Position numbers and translations under genes: made by a program. The notes beneath the pieces were generated by a model that was given only the letters and a program-made list of their open reading frames with translations, was not told the DNA's origin and did not search any database. From positions 62,001-126,000 of the forward strand of contig JAGPCY010000019.1 in assembly GCA_018057825.1 (NCBI GenBank): a stretch of DNA of 64,000 bases. Reading direction: 5' to 3'. The first letter of the stretch is position 1, and every line of letters begins with the position of its first letter. This DNA comes from Kofleriaceae bacterium (GTDB taxonomy: Bacteria > Myxococcota_A > Polyangia > Haliangiales > Haliangiaceae). Shown here one piece after another: positions 30,061 to 55,715 of the stretch.

Positions 30061-30066
30061 CGGCCC

Positions 30067-39758: not shown

Positions 39759-41645
39759 ATGACCACGCTCACCCTCGACGAGTTCCACGCGCTGCACCCG
39801 TGGCCGAGCCGCTTTGGCGACGGCAAGCGGGTCGAGTTCCTGTGGCCCTTCGATCTGGCGGCGCCGCCCGACGCGGTGTGGCGCGCGACCAGCGACACCT
39901 CGCGGCTCAACCGCGCGCTCGGCACGTCCGAGATGCGGTTCACCGAGAAGGACGGTCAGCGCTTCGGGTGGTCGAAGAGCGGCGGTCGCGTCCACACCTG
40001 GCGCGAGGTGCCGTGGAGCTGGGTCGCCGGGCAGTGGCTCGAGTGCGTGCGGATCTACGATCGCGGCTATCCCCGGCTCCTGCACGCGGTCCAGCGGGTC
40101 GAGCCGCGCGGCGACGGCAGCCGGTTCTACGCCTATTTCGGGTTCGTGCCGCGGGGCGCGGTCGGCGCGGCGGCGCTGCGCCTCGGCTTCGGCGCGCTGC
40201 ACAAGGACTACCGCCGGGTGCTGGCCGAGCTCGACCGCCAGCTCACGAGCGCGGCCGGCGCGATCCTGCCGGCGGCGCCGCCGACCCTGCCCGACGACAC
40301 CCGGGCCCGCCTCGACGCGATCGCCCGCGAGCTGCGCGGCAAGGGGCTCGACGGCGACGGCGTCGATCGGCTGGTCGGGTTCGTGGCCACCGGCGACGAG
40401 CTCGAGGTCGGGCGGATCCAGGTGCGCGAGCGGGCCCGGGCCTGGGGCCTCGACGAGGATCGCCTGCTGGCGGTGTGCCTGCACGCGACCCGGGCCGGCC
40501 TGCTCGAGCTGTCGTGGGACATCGTGTGTCCGCACTGCCGGGGTAGCGAGGGCGTGCCGACCCTGGGCGACCTGCCGACCGCGGCGCGATGCGAGACCTG
40601 CCTGCTCGACTTCGGCACCGATCGCGAGCACGCGGTCGAGATCACCTTTCGCGTCCACCGTTCGATCCGCGAGGTCCCGGAGCGGCACTTCTGTTCGGCC
40701 GAGCCGGCGCGCAAGCACCACATCGCGGTGCAGTGGCTGGTGCCACCGGGCGAGCGGATCGAGCTGGCGCCGCGGCTGGCCCGGCGACGTTACCGGACCC
40801 GGGTCGAGGGCGAGGAGCGCTACGGCTACCTCGACGTCGACGACCGCGGCGCCGAGCAGGTGGCGTGGACCGCGACCGCGACGCCGACGATCCAGGCGGT
40901 GGCGCCGGCGCCGCGCCTGGCCCTGGCCAACGACACCGCGGCCGACGCGTTGTTCGTGGTCGAGGACGGCCAGTGGTCCGACGTCGCGCTGCGCCCGGGG
41001 CGGCTGTTGTCGTTCCAGGAGTTCCGCGACCTGTTCAGCGAGGAGTACCTGGGGGCCGACGTCCAGCTCGCGATCGGCGAGCAGACGATCTTGTTCACCG
41101 ACATGGTCGGCTCGACCTCGCTGTACGCGACCCGCGGCGATCCGGCGGCCTTCGTCGAGGTCCGCCGCCACTTCACCGAGGTGTTCCGGTTGATCGCCGC
41201 CCACCGCGGCGCGGTCGTGAAGACGATCGGCGACGCGGCGATGGGGACGTTCGGCGATCCGCTCGACGCGGTCCGGTGCGCCAAGGCGCTCCACGATCGG
41301 TTCCCGCCGGGCTGCGCCGACTCGGTCGCGGTCCTGCGGATCTCGATCAACACCGGGCCGTGCATCGCCGTGCGGTTGAACGCCAACATCGACTACTTCG
41401 GCGGCACGGTGAACATCGCGGCCAAGCTCCAGGCCCTGGCCGAGGGCTGGCAGATCGCGATGAGCGCGGCGACCTACGAAGCGCCCGGGGTGGCGGCCTG
41501 GCTCGACGAGCACGGCGCCGCGGTCGAGCGCCTGGCCTACCGCTCGGCGGCGTTGCCCGACGAGATCGCGGTCCGGCGCTGGACGGTCTACCCGGCGCCG
41601 GCGTCGGCGGCGCGGCCCGACGAGCCAGGCCTCACGCCCGGGTGA
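39759..41645 (+). CDS. SRPBCC / zinc-ribbon / class III nucleotide cyclase
   Basis: This 628-residue protein has an SRPBCC-like N-terminus (WPFDLAAPPDAVWRATSDTSRLNRA in part), then a segment with CPHC and CETC (residues ~255-290) that looks like a four-Cys zinc ribbon as in DUF5939 proteins. It ends in a class III nucleotidyl cyclase domain from residue ~445. The metal Asp is in FTDMVGST, and the second one is in VVKTIGDAAMG, where the Lys suits adenine over guanine. The product is therefore probably cAMP; cGMP is not excluded. There is no membrane helix. Its last 14 bases overlap the convergent CFA-like gene. Confidence 0.85.
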   Translation: MTTLTLDEFHALHPWPSRFGDGKRVEFLWPFDLAAPPDAVWRATSDTSRLNRALGTSEMRFTEKDGQRFGWSKSGGRVHTWREVPWSWVAGQWLECVRIYDRGYPRLLHAVQRVEPRGDGSRFYAYFGFVPRGAVGAAALRLGFGALHKDYRRVLAELDRQLTSAAGAILPAAPPTLPDDTRARLDAIARELRGKGLDGDGVDRLVGFVATGDELEVGRIQVRERARAWGLDEDRLLAVCLHATRAGLLELSWDIVCPHCRGSEGVPTLGDLPTAARCETCLLDFGTDREHAVEITFRVHRSIREVPERHFCSAEPARKHHIAVQWLVPPGERIELAPRLARRRYRTRVEGEERYGYLDVDDRGAEQVAWTATATPTIQAVAPAPRLALANDTAADALFVVEDGQWSDVALRPGRLLSFQEFRDLFSEEYLGADVQLAIGEQTILFTDMVGSTSLYATRGDPAAFVEVRRHFTEVFRLIAAHRGAVVKTIGDAAMGTFGDPLDAVRCAKALHDRFPPGCADSVAVLRISINTGPCIAVRLNANIDYFGGTVNIAAKLQALAEGWQIAMSAATYEAPGVAAWLDEHGAAVERLAYRSAALPDEIAVRRWTVYPAPASAARPDEPGLTPG

Positions 41646-42858
41646 AGACGAGCTGGTGATCGGCGAGCGTGCGCTCGGCGAAGGCGGCCTCGGAGAAGGC
41701 GAGGTAGAGGTTCCAAGCGCGGACGAAGGTGTCGTCGAAGCCGAGCCGACGCACGGTCGGCAGCGCGGCGTTGAACCGCGACCGCCAGGCCGCCAGGGTC
41801 GGCGCGTAGTCGGGCCCGATGTCGTCGGCCGAGGTCCAGGTCAGGCCGGTGCCGGTGAGCCCGGCGCGGATCGCGCCGAGCGACGGGATCAGCGACCCGG
41901 GGAAGATATAGGTCTGCATCCAGTCGACCGAGCGGCGGTAGGCGTCGAAGCGATCGTCGGGCATCGTGATCGACTGGATGACGGCGCGCCGCCCCGGGCG
42001 GAGGGCCCGGCCGACGACCGCGAAGTAGCGCGGCAGGAACTCGTAGCCGACGGCCTCGAGCATCTCGCACGACAGGACGGCGTCGTAGCGGCCGGTGACG
42101 TCGCGGTAGTCGCGCAGCTCGATCGACACCCGATCGGCCAGGCCGAGGGCCGCGACCCGCGCGGTGGCGTAAGCGTGCTGGGCCGGCGAGACCGTGATGC
42201 CGGTGACCCGGCAGCCGCGGGTCTGGGCGGCGTGGATCGCGAGCGCGCCCCAGCCGCAGCCGATCTCGAGGACGTGATCGCGCGGGCCGAGGTCAGCCAG
42301 GGCGCACAGCCGCTCGAGCTTGGCGCGCTGGGCCGAGGCCAGGTCGGCGCCCGGCTCCCAGATCGCGCACGAGTAGCACAGCTCGTCGTCGAGGAACTCG
42401 CGGTAGAAGGCGTTGCCGAGATCGTAGTGGGCGGCGATGTTGCGCGCGCTGCCGCGGCGATCGTTGGCGGCCCGACGGTGGCGCAGGAGCGTCGGCAGCC
42501 GGGCCAGGACGGTCAGCGGCGACTCGACGCCGCGGGCGGCGGTGACGCGCAGGAACCAGCGCAGCGCGGCCGGGAGATCGTCGGCGTCCCAGTCGCCGGC
42601 GGTGTAGGCCTCGCCGGCGCCGAGCTCGCCGCGTAGGAGCATGCGGACGAAGGCGCGGTCGTGGTGGACGCGGATGGTCGCGACCTGGGCGCCGCGGCCA
42701 AGGCGCAGGCGCTCGCCGTCGGGCAGGTGCAAGAGGACGCCGCCGTCGACGTCGGGGCGCCCCAGGCCGCCGAGCACCGCGCGCCGCGCCAGGCTGGCGA
42801 CCGGCGAGGTCCACCGCGGCACCGGCGCGTACAGCGGATGGACCGGTTCATCGGCCAT
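41632..42858 (-). CDS. Cyclopropane-fatty-acid synthase-like methyltransferase
   Basis: This 408-residue protein matches the CFA synthase family: an N-terminal lipid-binding region, the SAM-binding VLEIGCGWGALAIHAA, and later SCEMLEAVGYEFLPRYF with the family Glu. The family transfers a methyl group from SAM to a double bond of membrane lipid chains. With the FAD and DUF1365 genes just upstream it may make a modified acyl chain such as a furan or methylated fatty acid, as in the comparable alphaproteobacterial neighbourhoods that I recall; this product is inference. It starts 84 bases after the DUF1365 gene. Confidence 0.86.
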   Translation of the reverse strand: MADEPVHPLYAPVPRWTSPVASLARRAVLGGLGRPDVDGGVLLHLPDGERLRLGRGAQVATIRVHHDRAFVRMLLRGELGAGEAYTAGDWDADDLPAALRWFLRVTAARGVESPLTVLARLPTLLRHRRAANDRRGSARNIAAHYDLGNAFYREFLDDELCYSCAIWEPGADLASAQRAKLERLCALADLGPRDHVLEIGCGWGALAIHAAQTRGCRVTGITVSPAQHAYATARVAALGLADRVSIELRDYRDVTGRYDAVLSCEMLEAVGYEFLPRYFAVVGRALRPGRRAVIQSITMPDDRFDAYRRSVDWMQTYIFPGSLIPSLGAIRAGLTGTGLTWTSADDIGPDYAPTLAAWRSRFNAALPTVRRLGFDDTFVRAWNLYLAFSEAAFAERTLADHQLVFTRA

Positions 42859-42942
42859 GGCGCGATCCGTGGGGGCCGGGTCGGGGTGAGACGGCGAGGC
42901 GAACGACTCCACGACGACTTGGATGCATCGGCGACCTCGACG

Positions 42943-43710
42943 TTACAGCGGCCGCGGCCGGTGAGTGGCGTCGGGCCGCGCGAACCGGACGCCGCGGGCG
43001 TGGTTCCACAGCGCCTCGGCGTAGATGAGGGCGATGGTCTGGACGCTCATGAGCGGGTAACGCACCGCGGCCACCGCCAGCGCGCGGTCGGTGAGCGCCG
43101 TCCGGGTTCCGGACAGGTGGGCGACGAAGACCGGCGCGCCGTCGGGGCGGGTGACGTCCATGTGGACGTCCTGGCGCGCGGGATCGCGGCCGGCGTCGAA
43201 CTCGAAGTCGTAGCGGACGTCGCCGTGGAGAAACGGCGAGACGAAGAAGCAGCGCTCGACCCGGTAGCGGACCCGCCCGGCGCGGGCGGCGACCTGCTGG
43301 GCCGGGCCGAGCAGGTACGGGTGGCGGCCGCCGTAGGTGTTGCGGACGTCGGCGATGGCGGCGGTGAGCTGGCCGGCGGCGTCGTAGGCGAGGAAGAAGC
43401 TGACCGGGTTGAAGACCCAGTGGGCGGTGCGGAGCTGGGTGACCAGGCGCGCCGAGGCCGGGGCCGGCAGCCCGGCGGCGGCGAGCTGGGCGTGGTAGTG
43501 CGCGGCGACGGCGACCGCCGGATCGTAGTCGCGATCGTAGAGCGACCACAGGTTGGGGCGGTTGTACGAGAACAGCCGACGACCGCGATCGAGGGCGGGC
43601 AGCTCGTCGAGGTCGAGGGCGGCGGTGACGATCGGATAGCGGAAGGTGCGGCGATGGCGATCGCGACGGACGTGGACCAGGTGACCGGGGTAGAGCGCCG
43701 AGGCGATCAC
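42943..43710 (-). CDS. DUF1365 protein
   Basis: This 255-residue protein has the DUF1365 pattern: HVRRDRHRRTFRYP, then PVSFFLAYD and the Arg-rich middle with NTYGGRHPYLLG. The family occurs with CFA-like methyltransferases and FAD amine-oxidase-like proteins, and has been linked to acyl-chain modification; its own reaction is not known. The GTG at 43710 overlaps the FAD gene stop (GTGA). One or more weakly hydrophobic helices suggest membrane association but no clear transmembrane segment. Confidence 0.84.
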   Translation of the reverse strand: MIASALYPGHLVHVRRDRHRRTFRYPIVTAALDLDELPALDRGRRLFSYNRPNLWSLYDRDYDPAVAVAAHYHAQLAAAGLPAPASARLVTQLRTAHWVFNPVSFFLAYDAAGQLTAAIADVRNTYGGRHPYLLGPAQQVAARAGRVRYRVERCFFVSPFLHGDVRYDFEFDAGRDPARQDVHMDVTRPDGAPVFVAHLSGTRTALTDRALAVAAVRYPLMSVQTIALIYAEALWNHARGVRFARPDATHRPRPL

Positions 43711-44951
43711 GCGCCCTCGTCGGCGAGGAGGCGCGCGGCGGCGACCTGCCCCGAGCGCAGGCCGTCCTCGTGGAAGCCGAACCCGGTCCAGGCGCCGGCG
43801 AAGTAGGTGCGGGCCACGCCCTGGAGGCGCGGCAGCGCGGCGTGGGCGTCCAGGGCGGCGAAGTCGAACTGCGGGTGGTGGAAGACCGCCTCGGTGTGGA
43901 CCTGGGCCAGCGGCCGCGACGGGTTGAGCGTGACGAAGTACGGCGGCGCGGTGGGCAGGCCCATCAGGCGGTTCATCCAGTAGGTCACCGCGACCGGGGC
44001 CGCGGGATCGTCGCGCCGGTAGTTCCACGACGCCCAGGCCCGCGGCGCCTGCGGCATGACCGACGGGTCGCTGTGCAGGACCGTCCGGTTTTCGGACGTC
44101 GCGAGCGGGCCGAGGGCGGCGGCCTCGGCCGCGGTGGGGGCGGCGAGCAGGGCCAGGGCGCGCGGCGCCGAGGTCGCGACGACGACCCGGGCGAACCGGT
44201 GCTCGCGGCCGCCGACGACGACGGTGACGCCGGTCGGATCGCGGTGGATCGCGGTGACCGCGGCCCCGGTGGCGACCGTGAAGCCACCGCGGGCCAGGAG
44301 CGCGTCGACGTAGCGCCGGCTGCCGCCGATCACGGTGCGCCACGGGTGCGGGCGCGTGGCGCGCAGCATGCCGTGGTGGTTGAGGAACCGCAGGTAGGTC
44401 TCGGCCGGGAACTGGCCGCAGCGCGCCGGGGCCAGCGACCACAACGCGGCCGCCAGCGGCACGACGAAGCGATCGCGCAGATCGTCGCTGAACCCGCGAT
44501 CGCGCAGCCATTCATCGAGGGTGGCGCGCCGGGTCCGCTCGCTGCCGAGATCGGCGCGCCCGACCTTGAGCAAGCGCACGACCTCGGCGAGGAAGCGCCA
44601 GTGCCGCGGCCGCACCAGGTTGCGCGGCTGGGCGAACCATCCGCCGGGGTCGGCGCTCGACCACTCGAAGCGCTCGTCGCCGTCGGGCAGCGTGACCGAA
44701 AACGACATCGCGGTCGGGCGCGACGCGATGCCCAGCTCGGCGAACAGCGCGGTCAGCCGCGGGTAGCTCGGGGTCGAGAAGACGATGAAGCCCATATCGA
44801 CCGCGGTGCCGTCGACCATCGCGGTGTGGACGTGGCCGCCGGCGGTGGGCGAGGCCTCGAAGACCGTGACCTCGGCCCGGCCGGCCAGGGCGTGGGCGGC
44901 GCCCAGCCCGGCGATGCCGGCGCCGATGACTGCGACCGCGGGCGGGCTCAC
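43707..44951 (-). CDS. FAD-dependent amine-oxidase-like oxidoreductase
   Basis: This 414-residue protein starts with the FAD motif VAVIGAGIAGLGAAHAL and an ERG-type second strand (VTVFEASPTAGGHVH), and ends with TYFAGAWTGFGFHEDGLRSG, where GAWTGFGFHEDG is the FAD-contacting end. It resembles COG2907-type flavoproteins, which often lie beside DUF1365 and CFA genes, as here. It may dehydrogenate a methylated acyl chain; that reaction is inferred from context. Both ends overlap neighbours (GTGA), so it is part of a tightly coupled operon. Confidence 0.86.
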   Translation of the reverse strand: MSPPAVAVIGAGIAGLGAAHALAGRAEVTVFEASPTAGGHVHTAMVDGTAVDMGFIVFSTPSYPRLTALFAELGIASRPTAMSFSVTLPDGDERFEWSSADPGGWFAQPRNLVRPRHWRFLAEVVRLLKVGRADLGSERTRRATLDEWLRDRGFSDDLRDRFVVPLAAALWSLAPARCGQFPAETYLRFLNHHGMLRATRPHPWRTVIGGSRRYVDALLARGGFTVATGAAVTAIHRDPTGVTVVVGGREHRFARVVVATSAPRALALLAAPTAAEAAALGPLATSENRTVLHSDPSVMPQAPRAWASWNYRRDDPAAPVAVTYWMNRLMGLPTAPPYFVTLNPSRPLAQVHTEAVFHHPQFDFAALDAHAALPRLQGVARTYFAGAWTGFGFHEDGLRSGQVAAARLLADEGA

Positions 44952-46045
44952 GATCCGGTTCGTAGCACCACGCCGCGGAAGCGCACGGGCGTGCTCGGGG
45001 CCAGGCCGTGGGCGTCGCGGACCAGGAGCGCGATCATGAAGCCGGCGCCGGCGACCGCGCGCTCGGCCTCGGGCGACAGCGGGATGTCGGCGATCAGCTC
45101 GGCGCTGGCGCCGGCCGGCAGGTGGCCGAGGTAGACGACGCGCCCGTCGAGCTCGGGGTTCGACGACGCGACCACGGCGCGCAGGCCGAAGCCGGGACCG
45201 GGGCCGACGTTGGCGAGCGGCAGGGCCAGGCGCAGGCGGCCGGGCGCGAGGACGACGCCCAGGCGACCGGGCTCGAACTGCGGGAGCTTCTCGAGGGTCT
45301 GGACCGGCGGGATCGCGGCGTCGATGCCCCGGGCGGCGAAGAACCCGGCGCGCGCGCCGGCCAGGACGCTGGGGTCGACGATGTGATCGAGGCGGAGCTT
45401 GCCGTCGGGGCCGGTCAGATCGATCGCCAGATCGAGGGGCGGCAGGCGCGGCTCGAAGGCGTCGACGAAGTCGAAGGCGGCGACGGAGAAGCGCCCGTCG
45501 TCATCGACCGCGCCCTCGACGTGGAGGCCGTTCCACAAGAGGACGGCGTGGCGGGCCGCGACCGCGCGCTCGCCGCACGGCACCGCCGGGCCGGGACGAG
45601 ACACGACCTGGGTGCCGGTGGGGTGACGCGCGGTGCGAGTGCCGATGAACGGGCCGATCGTGAGCGGCAGGCCGACCGCGAGCCCGGCGGCGCCGACGTA
45701 GGTCAGCGGTGAGCCGGCCGGTTCGTCGGTGGACAGGCCGCGGACCGCGGCGACCGCGCCCAGGGCGGTGGCGACCACCCCGACCACGACCGCGGCGGCG
45801 TTGGGACGGACCTGTTCGACGTCGAAGCCGGCGACGTCGGTCTCGACGACCGAGGTGCAGGTCAGCGGGGTGACGAAGCGCAGGCGGCCGTCGGGCTCGA
45901 CCTGCGCGGTCGGGGGCCGGGCCGAGGCGACGGTGCCAGCGACGGTGCGGGTCTCGCCGTTGCGGGTGTCCTGGGAGCGCACCGAGACGTGGCAGGCGGC
46001 GGCGGCGAGCGTGACGGCGAGGACCCGGCGAGACACCGCGGCCAT
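44948..46045 (-). CDS. Putative lipoprotein, first gene of the lipid operon
   Basis: This 365-residue protein has a probable lipoprotein signal (VTLAAAAC, Cys18) and a hydrophobic pair of segments at ~80-100 and ~115-135. A beta-rich C-terminal domain contains PLPLDLAIDLTGPDG-type strands (FEPRLPPLDLAIDL in part). No family is recognised. It overlaps the FAD gene by four bases and so may load or anchor that enzyme set. The ATG at 46045 is chosen because it starts the signal peptide; the frame upstream is Arg-rich. Confidence 0.62.
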   Translation of the reverse strand: MAAVSRRVLAVTLAAAACHVSVRSQDTRNGETRTVAGTVASARPPTAQVEPDGRLRFVTPLTCTSVVETDVAGFDVEQVRPNAAAVVVGVVATALGAVAAVRGLSTDEPAGSPLTYVGAAGLAVGLPLTIGPFIGTRTARHPTGTQVVSRPGPAVPCGERAVAARHAVLLWNGLHVEGAVDDDGRFSVAAFDFVDAFEPRLPPLDLAIDLTGPDGKLRLDHIVDPSVLAGARAGFFAARGIDAAIPPVQTLEKLPQFEPGRLGVVLAPGRLRLALPLANVGPGPGFGLRAVVASSNPELDGRVVYLGHLPAGASAELIADIPLSPEAERAVAGAGFMIALLVRDAHGLAPSTPVRFRGVVLRTGS

Positions 46046-46168
46046 CGTACGCGAGTCGGTCGGGCGTTTGTGAGGCAGGGCCGGTCGGACCGGCGGCGGC
46101 GCGCGGTAACCGATCGACCGGGCGGTGCATCCAAAATCGTCAGGCCAGCGAACCCCTGAGGTAGCCCT

Positions 46169-47524
46169 GTGACCGTCGACCCGCCCTGCGAGACCACCTC
46201 CGAGCTCGATGACCCGGAGCTCCTGCCGCCCGGCACGGCGGTCGGGGAGTACGTGCTCGACGAGCTGCTCGGGGCTGGCGGGTTCGCGCGGGTCTATCGG
46301 GCCCACCACGCGGTGCTGTCGGCGGAGGTGGCGATCAAGGTGATCACCCGGGCCCTGGCCCTCGACGCCGACGCCAGCGCGCGGTTCGTGCGCGAGGCCC
46401 GGGCGGCCAGCGCGATCGCCCACCCCGGGATCGTGCGGGTGCTGGGGTTCGGCAAGCTGGCCGACGGCCGCGCGTACCAGGTGATGGAGCTGATCGCCGG
46501 GCCAGCCCTCGACGATCACCTGGCGGAGGTCGGCCGCCTGCCGCGGGCCGAGGCGCTGCGCCTGCTCGACGCGATCGCCGCCGCCCTCGACGCCGCCCAC
46601 GCCGCCGGGATCGTGCACCGCGATCTCAAGCCGGCGAACGTGCTCCTGGCCCCGGGGCCATCGGGCCCGATGCCACGGCTGGCGGACTTCGGGATCGCCA
46701 AGGCCCTCGAGGGCGAGACCAACCCGCAGCTCACGCGGACCGGCACGACGCTCGGCACGCCGACGTACATGTCGCCGGAGCAGGCCCTGGGGCGGCCGGT
46801 CGGGCCGGCCAGCGACGTCTACTCGTTCGGGGTGGTGGCCTTCGAGCTCTTGACCGGCGAGGTGCCGTTCCCGTCGGAGTCGCCGCTCGAGACGATGATG
46901 CACCACGTGCAGACCGCGGCCCCGGCGCCGTCGTCGGTGGCGCCCGACCTGGGCCCGGGCTTCGACGCGGCGATGGCGGCGCTGCTGGCCAAGCGACCGG
47001 AGGAGCGACCGGCCTCGGCGGCGGCGGCGATGGCGGCGCTGCGGGCGGCGGGCGCGGTGGCGCGGCGGGAGCGTGGCCGCGCGCGCCGATGGCTCGCGGC
47101 GGGGCTGGGGGTCGGGATGCTGGCGGGTGCGGCGGCGATCGGGCTGGCGCTCCTGCGGGGCGAGGGACCGGCGCGCGCGGCGACGTCGGCCGGGGTGACC
47201 ATCGAGGAGCCGGGCGGCGCGGCGGCGGGGACGGCGGCGGCGACGGTGCCAGCGGAGCGCGCGGCGGCCGGGAACGTGGCGGCGCCGGTCGCGGTCGCGG
47301 CCGGGCCCGATGCGGCGGTCGCGCCCGCGGACAGCGACAGTGCGGCGGCGCGCGCGGCGACCGCGCGACCGTCTCGCCCGGCGGCCTCGGCCCCGCGCCG
47401 ATCGCCCGCGCCCGCGCCCTCGCCCACCCCGCCGCCGACCTCGACGTCGACCCCGCCGACGTCGACCCCGCCGGCCCCGCCGCCGGCCGATACCCTCGAG
47501 ATCCCTCCCGACTACCAACCCTGA
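46169..47524 (+). CDS. Membrane Ser/Thr protein kinase
   Basis: This 451-residue protein is a Hanks-type kinase with glycine loop GAGGFA (35-40), Lys57, HRDLKPAN (Asp152) and DFG (173-175), and GTPTYMSPEQ in the activation segment. One membrane helix lies near residues 310-328 (LAAGLGVGMLAGAAAIGLALL in part), followed by an exported tail rich in Ala and Pro. The GTG start has GAGG a few bases upstream. The FG-GAP lipoprotein gene follows after 12 bases, so both probably belong to one unit with the PEGA protein. Confidence 0.87.
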   Translation: MTVDPPCETTSELDDPELLPPGTAVGEYVLDELLGAGGFARVYRAHHAVLSAEVAIKVITRALALDADASARFVREARAASAIAHPGIVRVLGFGKLADGRAYQVMELIAGPALDDHLAEVGRLPRAEALRLLDAIAAALDAAHAAGIVHRDLKPANVLLAPGPSGPMPRLADFGIAKALEGETNPQLTRTGTTLGTPTYMSPEQALGRPVGPASDVYSFGVVAFELLTGEVPFPSESPLETMMHHVQTAAPAPSSVAPDLGPGFDAAMAALLAKRPEERPASAAAAMAALRAAGAVARRERGRARRWLAAGLGVGMLAGAAAIGLALLRGEGPARAATSAGVTIEEPGGAAAGTAAATVPAERAAAGNVAAPVAVAAGPDAAVAPADSDSAAARAATARPSRPAASAPRRSPAPAPSPTPPPTSTSTPPTSTPPAPPPADTLEIPPDYQP

Positions 47525-47536
47525 CTGGAGCTGGTC

Positions 47537-49447
47537 ATGTCTTCGCCTCGTCCGTTCTTGCTTCGCGCCCTGGTGCTCGCGGTCGCGCCGTGGCTCGCCG
47601 CGGCGTGCGCCGAACCGACCGAGGTCACCCCTGGCGTCTGCGGCAACCTCGTGACCGAGGCCGGCGAGCAGTGTGATGGCCAGGACGACTGCGGCGTCGA
47701 TGGCGCGGCGGCGTGCCGCTACACCTGCGCGCAGGGCGAGCGGGCGTGCCCGGGCGACCTGGCGTGTTCGGTCGACGGCGTGTGCGTGGCCAGCGCCGGG
47801 CGCTTCGTGCCGTTCGACGTCGGGCGCCGCTACGAGCTGGCGGCCGATCGCATCGTCGTCGGTGACCTCGACGGCGATCGCCGCGATGATCTGATCGGCG
47901 TCGGCGACGCGGTGCGGGTGCGGTTCGGCTCGCCCGATGAGCCGCTCCTGGCCTCCTACGAGAAGGCGATCCGACCGCCGACCGGGGCCGCGGCCTTCGG
48001 TGAGCTCGACGATCGCCCCGGCCTCGATCTGGTGTTCCCGACGGCGACCGGGGTGTTCACGCTCCTGGCCCGCGGCCGCGAGCTCGAGGCCGTGCCCTAC
48101 GCCAGCACCGCCGCGCTGCCCGACGATGGCGCCGCGGCGTGCGCGCCGTCGCCCGGATGGGCCATGTGTCGGACGATCGATCTCGATCGCGACGGGCGGC
48201 TCGATCGGGTCGGCTTCGTCGCCGATCGCGACAACCTCGCGATCGAGCTGGGCCGCGCGGCCGGGCCGTCGGTGGCGGTGACGATCGATACGCTCGACGT
48301 GATCACCGACGTCGCGGTCGGCGACTTCGACGGCGATGGCTACGGCGACATCGGCTTCGCGACCCGCTCCGTCGATGGCGCGGGCACCGAGTCGGCGGCG
48401 GTGGTCTATGGCGCACCGCAGCCGAGCGGCTTCACCCGCGCGCCGGTCCTGACCGCGGATCGGGTGCGCGGGGTCGCGGCGGCCGATCTCGACGCCCCGC
48501 CCGACGGCCTCGCCGACCTGGCGATCGATCGCGTCGACGGCGCCACCGCCGGGGTCGCGCTCTACCTGGGCGACGCCGCGCGCGATCTGTCGGCGCCGTT
48601 CCGCCTCGATGGCAGCCGCGCCGACCTCGACGTGCCGTACGCGGTGGTGGCGGGCGAGTTCGTCGGCGGCGTCGGCTCCGGCATCGACGTCATGGCCTAC
48701 GCGCGCAACCCGGCCGAGCCCGATCGCGCGTACCTGTGGTGGCTGCGCGGGGTCGGCGCGGCCCAGCTCGAGCTGGGCGCGGTCGATCCGGTCGACGTGA
48801 CCGACCTCGCCTTCGTCGACAACCAGTGGCGGGTCGCCGACCTGGTCACCGACGACACCACCGGCAACGGGCCCGACGAGGTGATCGGCCTGTCGCCGCG
48901 CGCCCCCGACTGCGCCGGCCCGGCCTTGACCGCGGCGGTGCCGAGCGCGCGCTTCACGCCAGGGCCGCTCTTGCGCAGCGCGTGCCTGGGCCTCGATGAG
49001 CCGGGCTGGTCGCCAGCGCTGATCGGGCTGGTCGAGGGCGTGGCCGGGCCGCGCGCGGTCGCCCTGGCGCAGCGGGCTGAGACCTGGTGGCTGGGCGAGG
49101 CCACCCGGCTCGACGACGCCACCATGACCGGGCGGCTGGGCGGCGCGACGGTGGCGTTGCCCGACGGCTGCCGCGATCCGCAGCTCTGGGCTCAGACGCC
49201 GGAGGCCGGGACCTTCGTGTCGTGGTTGTGCGATCGGCCCGACGGCAGCGAGGTGCTGGCGCTGCGCGCGACGGCGACCGGCGCCGCGACGCCGACGGCG
49301 ATCGCCACCGTGCCGCCGGGCGCGGCCCACCTGACCGGCGACTGGAACGGCGACGGCCTGACCGACGTCGTGATTCGCCAGGGCCGCGCGTTGACCGTCC
49401 TCTTGCAGTGCTCGACCGACATGGTGGGCACGACGCCGGGTTGCTGA
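47537..49447 (+). CDS. FG-GAP/VCBS-like repeat lipoprotein
   Basis: This 636-residue protein has a lipoprotein signal ending WLAAAC, a Cys-rich myxobacterial-type segment (CGNLVTEAGEQCDG and CSVDGVCV) and then a beta-propeller-like part. The propeller has repeated calcium-loop motifs GDLDGDRRDD, GDFDGDGYGD and DWNGDGLTD. Such proteins lie on the surface and bind carbohydrates or proteins in a calcium-dependent way. It is 12 bases after the kinase gene and nearly abuts the PEGA gene; all three may act in one envelope signalling or adhesion unit. Confidence 0.84.
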   Translation: MSSPRPFLLRALVLAVAPWLAAACAEPTEVTPGVCGNLVTEAGEQCDGQDDCGVDGAAACRYTCAQGERACPGDLACSVDGVCVASAGRFVPFDVGRRYELAADRIVVGDLDGDRRDDLIGVGDAVRVRFGSPDEPLLASYEKAIRPPTGAAAFGELDDRPGLDLVFPTATGVFTLLARGRELEAVPYASTAALPDDGAAACAPSPGWAMCRTIDLDRDGRLDRVGFVADRDNLAIELGRAAGPSVAVTIDTLDVITDVAVGDFDGDGYGDIGFATRSVDGAGTESAAVVYGAPQPSGFTRAPVLTADRVRGVAAADLDAPPDGLADLAIDRVDGATAGVALYLGDAARDLSAPFRLDGSRADLDVPYAVVAGEFVGGVGSGIDVMAYARNPAEPDRAYLWWLRGVGAAQLELGAVDPVDVTDLAFVDNQWRVADLVTDDTTGNGPDEVIGLSPRAPDCAGPALTAAVPSARFTPGPLLRSACLGLDEPGWSPALIGLVEGVAGPRAVALAQRAETWWLGEATRLDDATMTGRLGGATVALPDGCRDPQLWAQTPEAGTFVSWLCDRPDGSEVLALRATATGAATPTAIATVPPGAAHLTGDWNGDGLTDVVIRQGRALTVLLQCSTDMVGTTPGC

Positions 49448-49449
49448 GC

Positions 49450-50661
49450 GTGCGCGCGGCGACCTTGGCGCTCTTGGCGCTCTTGGTTTCGACCGGCGCG
49501 GCGGTGGCGCAACCCTCGACGACGCCCGCGCCGACGCCCGCGCGCGCGGTGAGCGCAGCCGATCGCGCCGCGGCCGAGGACGCGTTCCGGGTCGGCGCCC
49601 AGGCGTTCCGCGCCAACCTGTTCGCGGTCGCCGCCGACTCCTTCGAGGAGGCCCAGGCGCGCGACCCGCGGCCCGAGACCGCGTTCTCGCTGGGCCAGGC
49701 CAACCGGCTGGCGTACTTCGGCGATCGCGCGGCCTGGCGCGTGCAACGCGCGGTGCAGATGTATCAGTGGTACCTGAGCCAGCTCCCGTCGGGACCGCGG
49801 GCCCGCGACGCCAGCGATCACCTGGGAGTGCTCGAGCCGCTCCTGGCCGAGCTGCGGCGCCGCGGCGAGCTGGTGCCGTTCCAGCCGGTGGTCCGCACCC
49901 AGCTCGTGGTCGGCGCCGAGGTCGAACAGGCCGAGGTCACGATCGATGGCGCCAAGGTCGGGCTGTGGCAGCCGACCGAGGTCGCCCCCGGTCCCCACCA
50001 GATCGTCGTCGACGCGCCCGGCTACGAGATCGCGACTCGACGGGTGGTGATCGCGGCGGGCGCCTTCGTCCCGGTCGACGTGCCGCTGGTGGCCAAGCCC
50101 GGTCGGCTGCGGGTGCGCGCCGAGGCCGGGGCCCGCCTCTACATCGACGGCCGCGCCGCCGGCGCGGTCGGTGGCGCCCCGCGGCGGATCACGCCCGGCG
50201 AGCACTTCGTGAGCGTGACCCGGCGCGGCCGCACGTCGTGGAGCGGCGTGGTCGAGATCGCGCGCGATCAGGAGCTGGCCCTCGACGTCGAGCTGGCCCC
50301 GACCGGACAGCGCCGGGTGGCGCACTGGGTGCTCGGCTCGGCGGCCGCGCTGGCCGTGACCGCGGGCGGCGTCGAGCTCTGGGCGTGGTCGGCGCGGCGC
50401 GACGCCGAGGAGATCGATCAGGCGCGGCGCGATCTGACGGCGACCCCGGCCGATCTGGCGCGCTACAACCGCCTGGTCGACGACGCACAGACGCGGCGCG
50501 CGGTGGCGGTCGGCCTGGGCGCCGGGGCGCTGGCGATCGGCGCCCTGGGCGCGGGGATGTGGCTCTTCGATCACGAGCCGCCCGGGACGACCTCACGCCT
50601 CGAGCTGACGCCGGTCATCGGCAAGGACGGGAGCGGCGCGATGCTCCGCGGCGCGTTCTGA
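49450..50661 (+). CDS. PEGA domain protein with TPR-like region
   Basis: This 403-residue protein has a signal peptide (ATLALLALLVSTGAAVAQ), then a TPR-like helical region (residues ~35-130) and two PEGA-like beta domains (GAEVEQAEVTIDGAKVG and GARLYIDGRAAG). Two membrane-helix-like stretches near the C-terminus (VLGSAAALAVTAGGVELWAW and AVAVGLGAGALAIGALGAG) follow. PEGA domains occur in surface and secretion-related proteins. GTG 49450 is chosen; TTG 49441 would overlap the preceding stop. Confidence 0.78.
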   Translation: MRAATLALLALLVSTGAAVAQPSTTPAPTPARAVSAADRAAAEDAFRVGAQAFRANLFAVAADSFEEAQARDPRPETAFSLGQANRLAYFGDRAAWRVQRAVQMYQWYLSQLPSGPRARDASDHLGVLEPLLAELRRRGELVPFQPVVRTQLVVGAEVEQAEVTIDGAKVGLWQPTEVAPGPHQIVVDAPGYEIATRRVVIAAGAFVPVDVPLVAKPGRLRVRAEAGARLYIDGRAAGAVGGAPRRITPGEHFVSVTRRGRTSWSGVVEIARDQELALDVELAPTGQRRVAHWVLGSAAALAVTAGGVELWAWSARRDAEEIDQARRDLTATPADLARYNRLVDDAQTRRAVAVGLGAGALAIGALGAGMWLFDHEPPGTTSRLELTPVIGKDGSGAMLRGAF

Positions 50662-50686: not shown

Positions 50687-51568
50687 CTACGGCGCGGCGC
50701 GCGCGACGACCCGGTCCTGGCTCGACACGACGACGCCGGCCGGGGTCTCGAGGGTGATCGCGAAGCCGGCGACCGCGCCGATCGGCAGCCGCGGCTCGAT
50801 CGTGATGACCTGCTCGCCGACGGCGCTGACGTCGAAGCGACCGCCGTCGACCGGGAAGCGCTCGTCGCGAGTGCGATCGACGATCCACACTTGGTAGCGC
50901 GCGACGGCGGGATCGTTGACGGCCAGGCCGGTCAGGCGCGCCTGCCCGCGCTGCCCGGTCGGGCTCCACACGACCTCGCCCGCGACCCCAGCGCCGGCGG
51001 CGTCGCCGCCCGGTCGCCAGCGCAGGGTGACCAGCTCCGACGCGGACGCGCCGGCGAAGGGCGCGGGACCGGCGACGCTCGGCGCGGTCGGGGGCGAGGC
51101 GGCTGGCCCGACGCCAGCGGGGCCACGGGTCAAGGCGACCGCGGCGACCGCCGCCGCCGCCAGCCAGCCCGAGGCCGCCAGGCCCCAGACCAGGCGGTTG
51201 CGACCCGCGCCGCCGCGCGGCGGGCGCGGCGCAGCCATCGAGCGGGTCGCGCGCGGGGCCGGCGCCGGAAGATCGGCCGCGACCGACGGCACCGACGGAG
51301 CGGTCGACAGCGCGCTGGTCGGCGGCGCGGCGACGGCGCGGGACCCCGGGGCGGCGGCGAGGAGCTTGGCGGCCAGCTCCGCCGGCAGCGGCTCGCGCGG
51401 GACCGCGGCGACCGCGACCGCGGCGGCCGCGAGGTCGAAGCTGTCGACGTCGGCGGCGCCCAGGCGCGCCAGCTCGGCGGTGGCCTCGGGGTCGAGGCCC
51501 TCGGTGGCGCGCTGCACTAGCAGCTCGTGGGCGCGCATGGTCTCGAGGTCAGTCAACGAGCGCTTCAT
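50687..51568 (-). CDS. RskA-like anti-sigma factor
   Basis: This 293-residue protein has an N-terminal helical region of the anti-sigma type (TDLETMRAHELLVQRATEGLDPEATAELARLG in part), a single membrane helix near residues 135-155, and a C-terminal domain with the RskA-type pattern YQVWIVD, FPVDGGRFDV and AGFAITLETPAG. RskA family proteins hold an ECF sigma factor at the membrane and release it by proteolysis. It starts four bases after the sigma gene and is divergent, as part of the sigma unit, from the fasciclin gene. Confidence 0.83.
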   Translation of the reverse strand: MKRSLTDLETMRAHELLVQRATEGLDPEATAELARLGAADVDSFDLAAAAVAVAAVPREPLPAELAAKLLAAAPGSRAVAAPPTSALSTAPSVPSVAADLPAPAPRATRSMAAPRPPRGGAGRNRLVWGLAASGWLAAAAVAAVALTRGPAGVGPAASPPTAPSVAGPAPFAGASASELVTLRWRPGGDAAGAGVAGEVVWSPTGQRGQARLTGLAVNDPAVARYQVWIVDRTRDERFPVDGGRFDVSAVGEQVITIEPRLPIGAVAGFAITLETPAGVVVSSQDRVVARAAP

Positions 51569-51572
51569 GACG

Positions 51573-52133
51573 TCACCGGACCTCGCCGTGATGACCGAGG
51601 AGCGCGGCGCGGATCGCCAGCAGTCCCCGCCGGAGGTGGGCCTTGACGGTGCCCAGGGGCATGCCCGTCTGGCTGGCGATCTCGCCGTGGGACAGGCCTT
51701 CGCAGGTCGACAGCACCAGCACCTGGCGCTGCTCGGGGCGGAGCTGGGCCAGGGCGCGCGACGCTTGGGCGGCCTCGGCCGCGACCTCGGGCCCGCTGCC
51801 ACCGTCGGCCACCGCCGGCCACTGGTCGACCGACTCGGCGGCGGGGTGGCGGCTGCGGCTGCGGCGCCGGTCGATCAGGCGGCGCCGCGCGATCATCGCC
51901 ACGAACGTGACCTCGGCGGCGACCGCGGGATCGAACCGGGCGGCGCTCTTCCAGAGATCGAGGAAGATCTCCTGGACCGCGTCGTCGGCGTCGGCCGGAT
52001 CGAAGCGGCGCGCCAGCGACCACACCAGGCTGCCGTACCGCTCGATCACGTCCTTGACCGCGGCGCGATCGCCGGCGGCCACCCGCGCGAGGAGCGCGGG
52101 CGCGGGCGGGTCGGCGTCGGGCTGGGCCACCAT
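51573..52133 (-). CDS. ECF sigma factor (SigK-like)
   Basis: This 186-residue protein has sigma region 2 (DADDAVQEIFLDLWKSAARFDP in part) and region 4 with LSHGEIASQTGMPLGTVKAHL. The ATG at 52133 removes a long Arg-rich extension seen in the same frame upstream. TACAGT lies 11 bases before this ATG and could be a -10 element. The neighbouring RskA-like gene and divergent fasciclin gene match the arrangement of the mycobacterial SigK-RskA-MPT70/MPT83 unit, which supports a SigK-type assignment. Confidence 0.82.
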   Translation of the reverse strand: MVAQPDADPPAPALLARVAAGDRAAVKDVIERYGSLVWSLARRFDPADADDAVQEIFLDLWKSAARFDPAVAAEVTFVAMIARRRLIDRRRSRSRHPAAESVDQWPAVADGGSGPEVAAEAAQASRALAQLRPEQRQVLVLSTCEGLSHGEIASQTGMPLGTVKAHLRRGLLAIRAALLGHHGEVR

Positions 52134-52508
52134 CGGACCGGCCGACTGTACCCGCAAAGGCGCCGCCGGGCCGAACCCGAACCGGGGGGCGGCGGAGGGC
52201 GCGACCGCGCGGATGACGTCGAGGCTGGCGGTGGCGGGAATCGTGACCTCCACCGATGGCTTCGCTGGCTGAGCGCGCTTGGATGCAGCGCGCCGGCGCG
52301 CCGTGGTCGATCGCGTGCGAGCGAGCCCGATCCGCGATCGATCGTGGACGATCCGCGGTCGATCTGCGCGATCGCGACGATCGCGTGCATCCAACCGGCG
52401 AGGTGCGGCGAAGTCCGCGGTGAACGTTTCGAATGATTTTCTTGCTCCTCTCTGCGGGCCACGGCCCCGGGGGCACGGAGCCAGCTCTAACCCACCGAGG
52501 ACCTACCG
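52134..52508. promoter_or_regulatory. Divergent control region, sigma factor / fasciclin lipoprotein
   Basis: This 375-base region has no supportable gene and contains many CGATC words and a repeated CGATCGCGTGC (two copies near 52309 and 52379). TGAAC at 52421-52425 followed by an AT-rich stretch ending in GATTTTCTTGC resembles an ECF-type promoter for the fasciclin gene, though the spacing was not checked by alignment. The GGATGCA/TGCATCC inverted pair near 52285 and 52386 is also notable. Confidence 0.45.
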
Positions 52509-53507
52509 ATGAACACGCTCACCTTGTCTCGCTTCGCCACCACCGCCGCCCTCGCTGTCACCCTCGTCGCGTGCGGCGACGACGGCGGCGACCTCAGCCC
52601 CGACGCGCCGGCCGGTCCGGTGTCGATCGTCGCCACCGCGCAGTCGACGCCGGAGCTGTCGACCCTGGTCGCCGCGGTGCAGTTCGCCAGCAACGACGGC
52701 GACCTGCTGAACCTGCTGTCGAGCCCCGGCACGCTCACCGTGTTCGCGCCGACCAACGCGGCCTTCGACGCCCTGGCGGTCGAGCTGACCGGCGTGCCGG
52801 GCACGACCGGCGCGGCGCTCCTCACCGAGGCAAATAAGCCGCTCCTGCGCGCCGTGCTCCAGTATCACGTGCTGACGTCGGAGGTCGCCTCGTCGGCGAT
52901 CCCGTTCGGGCTGCCGATCACCAGCGCGGAGGGCAGCGTCTTCAAGATCGACACCGGCACCCCGCCGGTCATCACCGACGGCCGCAACCGCACCGCCCGC
53001 ATCACCGCCACCGACATCGACGCGTCGAACGGCGTCGTGCACCTGATCGACAAGGTCATCCTGCCGGCCGACAAGAACGTCGTGCAGACGGCCCAGGCCC
53101 TGGCCGCAGCGAACCCGGCCGAGTTCACGATCCTCGTCGAGGCGGTGGTCGCGGCCGATCTGGCCGGGACGCTGAGCGGCGCCGGCCCGTTCACGGTGTT
53201 CGCGCCGACCGACGCCGCGTTCGCCGCGCTCCTCACCGAGCTCGGCGTGACCAAGGCCCAGCTCCTGGCCAACACCGCGCTCCTGACCCAGGTGCTGACC
53301 TACCACGTCGTCCCGGGCCGGGTGTTCAAGGCCGCGGTGCCGGTGGGCGCGGCGATCGCCACCGTCGAGACGGGCACGTTCACCGTCAACGCCAGCCTGC
53401 AGATCACCGACGAGCGCGGCCGCACCGCGCGGATCGTCGGCACCGACACCCTGACCTCGAACGGCGTCATCCACGTCCTCGACCGGGTCATCCTGCCGGC
53501 GCCGTGA
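52509..53507 (+). CDS. Two-domain fasciclin lipoprotein
   Basis: This 332-residue protein has a lipoprotein signal ending TLVAC (Cys22) and two fasciclin-like domains at about 45-185 and 190-330. Each holds a LTVFAPTNAAFDAL or FTVFAPTDAAFAAL segment and an IHVLDRVILP/VHLIDKVILP ending. Fasciclin domains mediate adhesion. Its position divergent from an ECF sigma/RskA-like pair suggests that this sigma factor controls it, as in the mycobacterial MPT70/MPT83 system. It is probably at the outer surface or periplasm. Confidence 0.88.
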   Translation: MNTLTLSRFATTAALAVTLVACGDDGGDLSPDAPAGPVSIVATAQSTPELSTLVAAVQFASNDGDLLNLLSSPGTLTVFAPTNAAFDALAVELTGVPGTTGAALLTEANKPLLRAVLQYHVLTSEVASSAIPFGLPITSAEGSVFKIDTGTPPVITDGRNRTARITATDIDASNGVVHLIDKVILPADKNVVQTAQALAAANPAEFTILVEAVVAADLAGTLSGAGPFTVFAPTDAAFAALLTELGVTKAQLLANTALLTQVLTYHVVPGRVFKAAVPVGAAIATVETGTFTVNASLQITDERGRTARIVGTDTLTSNGVIHVLDRVILPAP

Positions 53508-53551
53508 CGAGGTCGCGGCCGCGCCGGTTCGCGGCGAGCCTCGACTTGTCC

Positions 53552-53557
53552 TACCGT
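53552..53557 (+). promoter_or_regulatory. Candidate -10 element (TACCGT), hydrolase gene
   Basis: TACCGT ends six bases before the ATG of the hydrolase gene. The -35 region has only a weak TTCGCG near 53528. It matches the leaderless pattern. Confidence 0.42.
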
Positions 53558-53563
53558 CGGGCG

Positions 53564-54253
53564 ATGGTGAGCCCGATCGATCGAGCGACCGCGGTGACGA
53601 TCTCGAGCGAGGCGGGTCCGATCGCCGCGCGTCACTGGACGACCGAGACGTGCCACACGCTGTTCGTCCTCGGTCACGGCGCGGGCGCGGGCATGCACCA
53701 TCCGTTCATGGTCGCGATCGCGGCCGCGCTGGTCGAACGCGGCGTGGCGACCTTGCGGTGGGAGATGCCGGCCTTCACCGCCGGACGGCGGCTGGCGGAT
53801 CGGCCGGCGGTGGTGCGGCCCCTGGCGCGCGCGGCCTGCGCCTTCGCCCCGACCCTCGGCCCCGGCCTGCGCCTCATCGCGGGCGGCAAGTCGATGGGCG
53901 GGCGGATGACCTCCGAGGCCCAGGCGGCCGCGCCGATCCCGGGCCTCGCAGGGCTGGCGTTCCTCGGCTTCCCGCTCCACCCGGCCGGCGCGCCGGCGGT
54001 GACGCGCGCCGCCCACCTCGACGACGTCGCCGTCCCGATGCTGTTCGTCAGCGGCGACCGCGACGCCCTGGCGGAGCCCGGGCTCCTGGCCGGCGTGATC
54101 GCGCGGCTCGGGGCGCGCGCCACCCTGCGGACGATCCCCGGGGCCAACCACGGCCTCGAGGTCGGCCGGCGGGCCGGGCTCGATCCGATCGCGATCGCGG
54201 CGGGCGAGATCGCCACCTGGGCCGGCGCGCTCCCGGCCCCGCCGGTTCCTTGA
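53564..54253 (+). CDS. Alpha/beta hydrolase of the KANL3/Tex30-like type
   Basis: This 229-residue protein has the LGHGAGAGMHHP oxyanion/histidine motif, the nucleophile elbow GGKSMGGRM (Ser about residue 110), a VSGDRDALAEPG acid segment and a GANHGLE final histidine. KANL3/Tex30-type hydrolases have this order. The substrate is unknown; cytoplasmic esterase or dienelactone-hydrolase-like activity is plausible. The start is supported by TACCGT six bases upstream. The stop overlaps the -35 element of the next gene. Confidence 0.82.
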   Translation: MVSPIDRATAVTISSEAGPIAARHWTTETCHTLFVLGHGAGAGMHHPFMVAIAAALVERGVATLRWEMPAFTAGRRLADRPAVVRPLARAACAFAPTLGPGLRLIAGGKSMGGRMTSEAQAAAPIPGLAGLAFLGFPLHPAGAPAVTRAAHLDDVAVPMLFVSGDRDALAEPGLLAGVIARLGARATLRTIPGANHGLEVGRRAGLDPIAIAAGEIATWAGALPAPPVP

Positions 54254-54285: not shown

Positions 54286-55110
54286 GTGTGGTCGAGCTAC
54301 TCGCCCCGCCAGGCCGCGTCGCTGCTCGGGTTGCCCGAGTCGACGGTGCGCGGCCTCGCGCGGGCAGGGCTGATCAGCGGGCCGGCCGAACCGCCGCTGG
54401 CGCTGGGCTTCCGCGAGCTGGCCGCGCTGCGGGCGATCAAGGCCCTGCTCGACGCGGGCCTGACCCTGGCCCGGGTCCGGCGCGATCTGCGGACGCTGCG
54501 CCAGCGCCTCGGCCCGACCGCGTCGCTGGCCGAGCTGCCCCTCGAGGTCCAGGACGGCCGGGTCGCGGTCCGCGGTGAGCCGGCGCCGGTCAGCGGCCAG
54601 CTCTCGCTGCCGTTCGCGCCGCGCGTCGCCGCGCCCAACCCGGCCGGCGAGCTGCGCGATCTGCCGAGCCGTGGACCGATCGCCCCCGAGCCGGCGCCCG
54701 CGCTGACCGGCGACGACTGGTTCGAGCGCGCGATCGCCCTCGAGGAGCACGACGTCGAGGCCGCGATCGACGCCTACCGGCGCGCGATCCGCCTGCGCCC
54801 CGATCACGTCGAGGCGCTGATCAACCTGGGCCGCCTGCACGCCGAGGCCGGTCAGGCCGACGCCGCCAACGACTGCTTCGCCCAGGCCCTGGCCCTCGAC
54901 CCGGCCGACGCCACCGCGCTGTACAACCTGGGCGTCGTGGCCCAGGACAGCGGCCGCGAGGCCGACGCGATCATCTACTACACGCGGGCCCTCGAGCTCG
55001 ACGCCGGCCTGGCCGAGGCCCACTACAACCTGGCCACGCTGTTCGATCAGAGCGGCGACGCGCGCTCGGCGATCCGCCACATCAACGAGTACCGCAAGCT
55101 CACGCGATAG
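54286..55110 (+). CDS. MerR-like HTH protein with TPR repeats
   Basis: This 274-residue protein starts with a MerR-like helix-turn-helix ([27 protein letters not shown] in part), which reads as residues ~6-75, then an acidic linker. The C-terminal ~130 residues form three TPR-like units ([27 protein letters not shown] in part; then [24 protein letters not shown]). It may sense a partner protein through the TPR part and bind DNA through the first part. GTG 54286 fits both the MerR start and the upstream promoter. Confidence 0.8.
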
Positions 55111-55345
<235 letters not shown>

Positions 55346-55421
55346 TGGGTGCGCCGCGATCACAACAGGATCGCAACATCCGGGCAGGCCCAGGCGGCGT
55401 ACCAAGGACGCGAGGAGTCCC

Positions 55422-55715
55422 ATGTCTCGCATCCACGCCTTGATCGCCTCGCTCATGTCGCTCGCGCTGACCGCGGCCTGCGGCAGCACCACCGCCCCGG
55501 CGGCCGACGCCGGCGCTGACGCCGCGGTCGACGCCGCGGTCGACGCCGCGGTCGACGCCACCCCGGCCGGCCCGTCGCGGGCCGCGCTCACCGCGGGCGG
55601 CCGGCTCGCCGGCGGCAGCCTGGTGGTCGACGTCGCGATCGCTCCGCCGCCGGCCGCCGCGCCGCTGACTGGCGGCGCCGTGGTCGTCACCCCCGCTCAC
55701 CCCATCGCTCGCTGA
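55422..55715 (+). CDS. Small lipoprotein, 97 aa
   Basis: The signal peptide ends LTAAC (Cys20), followed by an acidic Ala/Asp-rich linker with three VDAA repeats that suits a surface lipoprotein. The last ~45 residues are Ala/Gly/Pro-rich and have no known domain. A GAGGAG Shine-Dalgarno sequence lies upstream. It ends 10 bases before the next gene, so the two are probably co-expressed. Confidence 0.62.

Follow-up and report, generated by a model that had tools for sequence, protein, structure and literature searches.

A putative autoregulated ECF sigma factor with an RskA-like partner, and its predicted fasciclin lipoprotein and kinase targets, in a Kofleriaceae bacterium

The window, the 64,000-nucleotide stretch of DNA analysed here, is part of contig 79 of its own genome (labelled G000; 8,892,834 bases in 84 contigs) and encodes an ECF sigma factor, SIG, which we consider, at a probability of roughly 0.8, to be an autoregulated sigma factor held by the adjacent RskA-like membrane protein ANTI and, judging from candidate promoter boxes, to drive its own operon, the gene of the fasciclin lipoprotein FAS and a kinase operon, in the manner of SigK-RskA-MPT83 though through a different ECF clade. 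We infer the following course of events: ANTI, probably encoded on the transcript of SIG, would hold SIG inactive until a signal from the envelope releases it, upon which the freed SIG would read boxes of the form TGCATCC-N15-GCGAA and would thereby transcribe its own operon (autoregulation), the two-domain fasciclin lipoprotein gene and the kinase/FG-GAP/PEGA operon. The genes, the boxes and their rarity, the co-variation of the boxes with SIG and the recurrence of the boxes in other phyla were all computed.

The gene of SIG (186 aa) occupies positions 51573..52133 of the minus strand, with its ATG at 52133, and its product contains sigma-70 regions 2 and 4 (Pfam, E 1.2e-15 and 6.1e-16), while the gene of ANTI (50687..51568, minus strand, 293 aa) begins 4 bases past the stop codon of SIG. 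On the plus strand, FAS (52509..53507, 332 aa) matches PF02469 twice (E 2.4e-53) downstream of a lipobox identified by eye, which makes it a fasciclin lipoprotein, presumably exposed at the cell surface, and its Cys22 is conserved in all seven aligned proteins. Exactly 375 bases (52134-52508) separate SIG from FAS. An ECF sigma and anti-sigma pair divergent from a two-domain fasciclin lipoprotein across 375 bases had been proposed in the first-pass annotation, and this is confirmed by the gene positions and by the Pfam domains of SIG and FAS; the span given there, 51573-53507, takes in SIG and FAS but leaves out ANTI at 50687-51568. The end of FAS is overlapped by an alpha/beta hydrolase gene (53504..54253, plus strand; PF20408, E 3.9e-35), possibly on the same transcript, and this hydrolase was not found in the searched loci of 22 relatives. 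Beyond ANTI lie three plus-strand genes that, with the box ahead of them, span 46126-50661: STK, a membrane Ser/Thr protein kinase of 451 aa (46169..47524; PF00069, E 9.9e-44), FGGAP, a cysteine-rich FG-GAP lipoprotein of 636 aa (47537..49447; PF13517, E 1.1e-7), and a PEGA-domain protein of 400 aa (49459..50661; PF08308, E 1.2e-14) whose gene is convergent with that of ANTI. Elsewhere in the window, Ser/Pro/Arg-rich repetitive reading frames at 55050-55700 on the minus strand, next to a lipoprotein-like reading frame at 55422, are probably simple repeats.

ANTI has no Pfam match, RskA_C (PF10099) being absent even at E <= 1, and the other five of the six aligned proteins match PF10099 (best E 3.9e-12). 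An AlphaFold2 model built from these 6 sequences (mean pLDDT 64.7) has four N-terminal helices and a C-terminal beta sandwich at a pLDDT of about 90, with an uncertain middle part, and a fold search with this model matched no solved structure at E <= 0.001. The membrane helix was read by eye in a part where confidence of the model is low, and inspection by eye revealed no zinc motif in ANTI.

Comparison by eye of the DNA upstream of FAS orthologues, regions which do not align over their full length, yielded the pattern GCATCC-N15-GCGAA, and a scan with this pattern located it in either orientation within the 375-base gap as well as upstream of the gene at 46169. The resulting predicted SIG boxes, TGCATCC-N15-GCGAA, are situated before FAS (52386..52412, plus strand), before SIG-ANTI (52261..52287, minus strand), where the box would serve autoregulation, and before the kinase operon (46126..46152, plus strand), with 16 bases between the end of the box and the start codon of STK. 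In its exact form TGCATCCR-N14-GCGAA the box occurs three times in the 8,892,834 bases of the genome, all three sites falling inside 6.3 kb and preceding SIG, FAS and STK; the looser GCATCC-N15-GCGAA occurs four times, three of these at this locus, as compared to one occurrence of the reversed control. Allowing the exact form one mismatch added 6 sites genome-wide, as against 7 for the reversed one-mismatch control, its own exact matches included, and rough gene calls placed no clear gene downstream of the one-mismatch sites. A weaker box-like motif is present at position 30065 of the plus strand. The possible ECF promoter that had been suspected in the gap has thus become a specific candidate box, present there on both strands and rare genome-wide, and the fasciclin gene and the sigma gene have this box in common, as in SigK-type systems, its function being predicted. 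The mycobacterial SigK box, CCATCC...CCGAATG, resembles the predicted SIG box.

Fifty-six genomes were compared, 30 of them members of the family including our own. SIG orthologues (59-70%) are present in 7 family genomes, ours included, as 8 copies of which one, in G020, is partial; when 35 genomes of the order were searched with a profile (E <= 1e-40), 6 were retrieved, the partial G020 copy scoring below the threshold. FAS orthologues (65-78%) were detected in 8 family genomes, again including our own, and across the 30 family genomes SIG and FAS co-occur (both in 5, SIG only in 2, FAS only in 3, neither in 20; Fisher p 0.0067), the absences being weakened by the incompleteness of several of these genomes. 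No FAS orthologue accompanies SIG in G026 and G027, and the second SIG copy of G017 has no FAS nearby. A box lies within 330 bases ahead of FAS in 5/5 family genomes that carry SIG (imperfect in G020, where it ends in CGAT) and in 0/3 of those without SIG, and ahead of SIG itself in 6 of the 7 copies with upstream DNA, our own included; the G020 copy, located at a contig edge, was excluded from the latter count, and for SIG of G027 no box was found in the 201 upstream bases examined. Among 16 relatives, whole-genome counts of the strict box fail to distinguish the genomes with SIG from those without it (G018 and G021, both without SIG, have 10 and 12), whereas the positional tests do so. Conservation of the gene order, on which the first-pass annotation had let its proposal depend, proved patchy, FAS being divergent from SIG in two of eight family copies (our own and G019) and some 4.5 kb distant in a third. 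On contig 161 of G017 the kinase, FG-GAP, PEGA, SIG and ANTI genes share one strand with FAS divergent from the kinase gene, and boxes precede FAS, SIG and this kinase gene, which is similar to STK. In G025 the FG-GAP, PEGA, ANTI and SIG genes retain the order of the window, and a contig other than that of SIG carries FAS, preceded by its box; the FG-GAP and PEGA genes have been kept beside SIG/ANTI in G017 as well as in G025.

When the SIG alignment was run against a collection of 84,980 species genomes, at least 396 relatives were confirmed, and the best 80 of them were kept (L129-L208); among these are the loci of G017 (L129) and G025 (L155), each recognised by a protein identical to that of the respective genome. 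Our own profiles identified an RskA-like gene in 74 of these best 80 of at least 396 loci, nearly always immediately downstream, and a FAS1 gene no more than 8 kb away in 28. In 21 of those 28 the FAS1 gene is collinear and immediately upstream, in 2 it is divergent at a distance of up to 450 bases and in 5 it is farther away; FAS1-SIG-RskA units occur in Planctomycetota, Acidobacteriota and Gammaproteobacteria. The proposal of a transferable unit is supported in that the unit is widespread and recombining. These loci also bear on whether SIG and FAS could be neighbours by chance and share no regulatory link, a notion to which the patchy gene order of the family lends itself and which we regard as barely credible, given the boxes before SIG and FAS and given that 26 of the best 80 of at least 396 loci have FAS1 in the interval from 1.5 kb ahead of the start of the SIG match to 2 kb beyond it, as compared to 1 of 24 other ECF loci (p 0.0065), the comparison loci having flanks of about 1.5 kb and the sole FAS1-bearing one being that of G003. 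The two other fasciclin genes of our own genome, on contigs 7 and 39, have no ECF gene in the flanks of about 1.5 kb that were read.

A DUF4397 gene is present in 9 of these best 80 of at least 396 loci, none of which has FAS1. In six of these nine, all from Myxococcota (L130, L132, L153, L160, L178 and L207), the DUF4397 gene is the immediate upstream neighbour of SIG and has the box in 6/6, with two DUF4397 stretches confirmed by Pfam in the four of them that were tested; a literature search found no paper joining DUF4397 with a sigma factor. CATCC-N16-CGAA occurs 42 times in the best 80 of at least 396 loci, and 23 of these boxes precede SIG (9), DUF4397 (7), FAS1 (6) or kinase (1) genes, as compared to 9/192 for 13 other spacings taken together (p 1.4e-13), DUF4397 and kinase genes having been picked as target classes after inspection of the loci; for SIG and FAS1 alone the figures are 15/42 and, over four other spacings, 3/44. 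As the spacing of 16 was taken from the family of the window, the other loci constitute a fair test of it. The strict form of the box stands before the tested genes in 22 loci and is lacking there in 58 of the best 80 of at least 396. L133 has a box 1441 bases beyond the point where the SIG match starts; a second ECF sigma gene follows it directly, which suggests a possible sigma cascade. Boxes in L163 and L165, from two different phyla, precede genes which by eye resemble those of SRPBCC proteins, and in L197, from another Myxococcota genome, a box accompanies a kinase gene located upstream on the minus strand and divergent from SIG.

As the box is known from its sequence alone, it might be bound by another regulator, of which SIG would be just one target. 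This we hold to be improbable, as a pair of short blocks at a constant distance of 16 bases has the form of an ECF promoter, as the box tracks SIG and not FAS among the relatives, and as it recurs beside SIG relatives of several phyla (among the best 80 of at least 396). Control of the fasciclin gene by SIG, as had been claimed, is likely on account of where the boxes fall in the window, in the genome, in the relatives and in the best 80 of at least 396 loci. The FAS, FG-GAP and DUF4397 proteins were all read by eye as lipoproteins, so that the unit would most likely remodel the cell surface, in answer to a signal that may be envelope damage, light or singlet oxygen.

It is also conceivable, though we rate it as rather unlikely, that the unit mainly mounts a photo-oxidative or membrane-lipid stress response rather than controlling the surface adhesion suggested in the first-pass annotation, FAS being one output among others, a view that is compatible with the proposed mechanism. 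An operon for a CFA synthase, a DUF1365 protein and an FAD amine oxidase (PF02353, PF07103 and PF01593) lies nearby at 41632..44951 on the minus strand, and in L157 the same trio is directly upstream of SIG; these are gene kinds of the mycobacterial sigK locus and of photo-oxidative clusters. The gene ahead of this row (44948-46045, minus strand) has no Pfam match. A fasciclin gene of R. sphaeroides is reported to be raised under photo-oxidative stress (PMC7074977), mpk83/mpk70 of M. kansasii to be induced by light (PMC9861118), and ufaA1 to be part of the SigK locus (PMC10540498). Against such a role, the box search placed no SIG box ahead of the operon in the window, and just one of the best 80 of at least 396 loci has the trio near SIG, while the searched loci of the other 22 relatives all lack it.

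The pair of regulators beside the fasciclin gene may be exchangeable. In G003, which belongs to the genus of the window, the FAS orthologue (76%) lies next to a different ECF/RskA-type pair (L043, 5025-6373) in divergent orientation: the product of the ECF gene is 39% identical to SIG and falls outside the SIG clade, and the RskA-type gene has no significant BLAST similarity to ANTI and scores 29.3 bits with PF10099 at a cut-off of 29.4. This one genome has neither a SIG nor an ANTI orthologue, and its FAS gene lacks an upstream SIG box. A two-strand repeat test of the divergent gaps was uninformative, as shuffled sequences gave as many repeats in 4/5 gaps, and no box was therefore assigned to the other sigma factor of G003. 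We tentatively propose a cross-phylum modular unit in which the ECF/RskA pair can be swapped, as in G003, as can the surface protein, DUF4397 for FAS1, with the box constant, and in which, in the lineage of the window, SIG would also transcribe its own membrane Ser/Thr kinase, a single feedback loop thereby linking ECF with kinase signalling.

The locus might be thought a true SigK-RskA-fasciclin cassette, acquired from or common with Actinobacteria, since its logic and kind of target match and since SigK ranks second for SIG among NCBIfam models (PRK09646, 103 bits) as well as among solved structures (4nqw, E 5e-15). We judge this to be quite unlikely. The best structural match is RpoE of R. 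sphaeroides (2q1z, E 7.9e-17), and the PRK09646 score is less than half of the cut-off of 226 bits. A tree of 113 proteins unites SIG with its orthologues and the best 80 of at least 396 relatives in one clade with support of 100/98, outside which fall SigK and SigE of M. tuberculosis, RpoE of R. sphaeroides and the sigma factor of G003, although their branching outside is unsure as the reference rows are long-branched and partial; the 80 relatives having been selected by similarity to SIG, the tree places SigK outside and leaves the extent of the clade undefined. Cysteines 133 and 183 of SigK, found in 94% of ECF18 and 56% of ECF19 members (PMC7509140), both align by eye to alanine in SIG, C133 having been placed via a primer sequence. 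On its tree position, its score and the absence of these cysteines, SIG was rejected as a SigK orthologue, and a reading of SIG as SigK itself, to which its first-pass description as SigK/RskA-like pointed, was not supported.

A named candidate box can now be tested in strains with members of the SIG clade, such as Hydrocarboniphaga daqingensis, Steroidobacter gossypii and Acanthopleuribacter pedis. The data suggest that the coupling of an RskA-type ECF system to a fasciclin-like protein has arisen more than once or been passed on between lineages, and the obscure signal of mycobacterial SigK might for this reason be approached outside pathogens.

The principle itself is already known: PMC7509140 describes an mpt83-sigK-rskA cassette that includes a SigK site and is conserved in Gram-negatives such as Yersinia. 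In that cassette and in SigK-RskA-MPT83/MPT70 of mycobacteria an RskA-type anti-sigma factor adjoins the ECF sigma factor and a fasciclin lipoprotein is the target, with a sigma site before its gene (PMC7509140, PMC10540498); the window has the RskA-like ANTI next to SIG, and FAS as a predicted target with a candidate box before its gene. The unit of the window differs from both in its ECF clade, in its divergent layout, in lacking the SigK cysteines and in having the kinase/FG-GAP/PEGA operon as a predicted third target. RpoE-ChrR of Rhodobacter is likewise an ECF/anti-sigma pair, with fasciclin and CFA synthase genes among the photo-oxidative stress genes, and the pair of R. capsulatus is itself described as closer to SigK-RskA (PMC7074977); however, ANTI has no zinc motif by eye and RpoE of R. 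sphaeroides is outside the SIG clade. The FAS1-SIG-RskA units of Planctomycetota, Acidobacteriota and Gammaproteobacteria share the SIG clade and the RskA-like gene, but their FAS1 gene is usually upstream and collinear whereas FAS of the window is divergent. The DUF4397-SIG-RskA rows of other Myxococcota share the box, a two-domain lipoprotein, SIG and the RskA-like gene, with DUF4397 replacing FAS1. What is added here, the regulation being predicted, is a distinct clade with its own box, a kinase operon, the exchange of FAS1 and DUF4397 as targets and, in G003, another ECF/RskA pair beside the same fasciclin gene.
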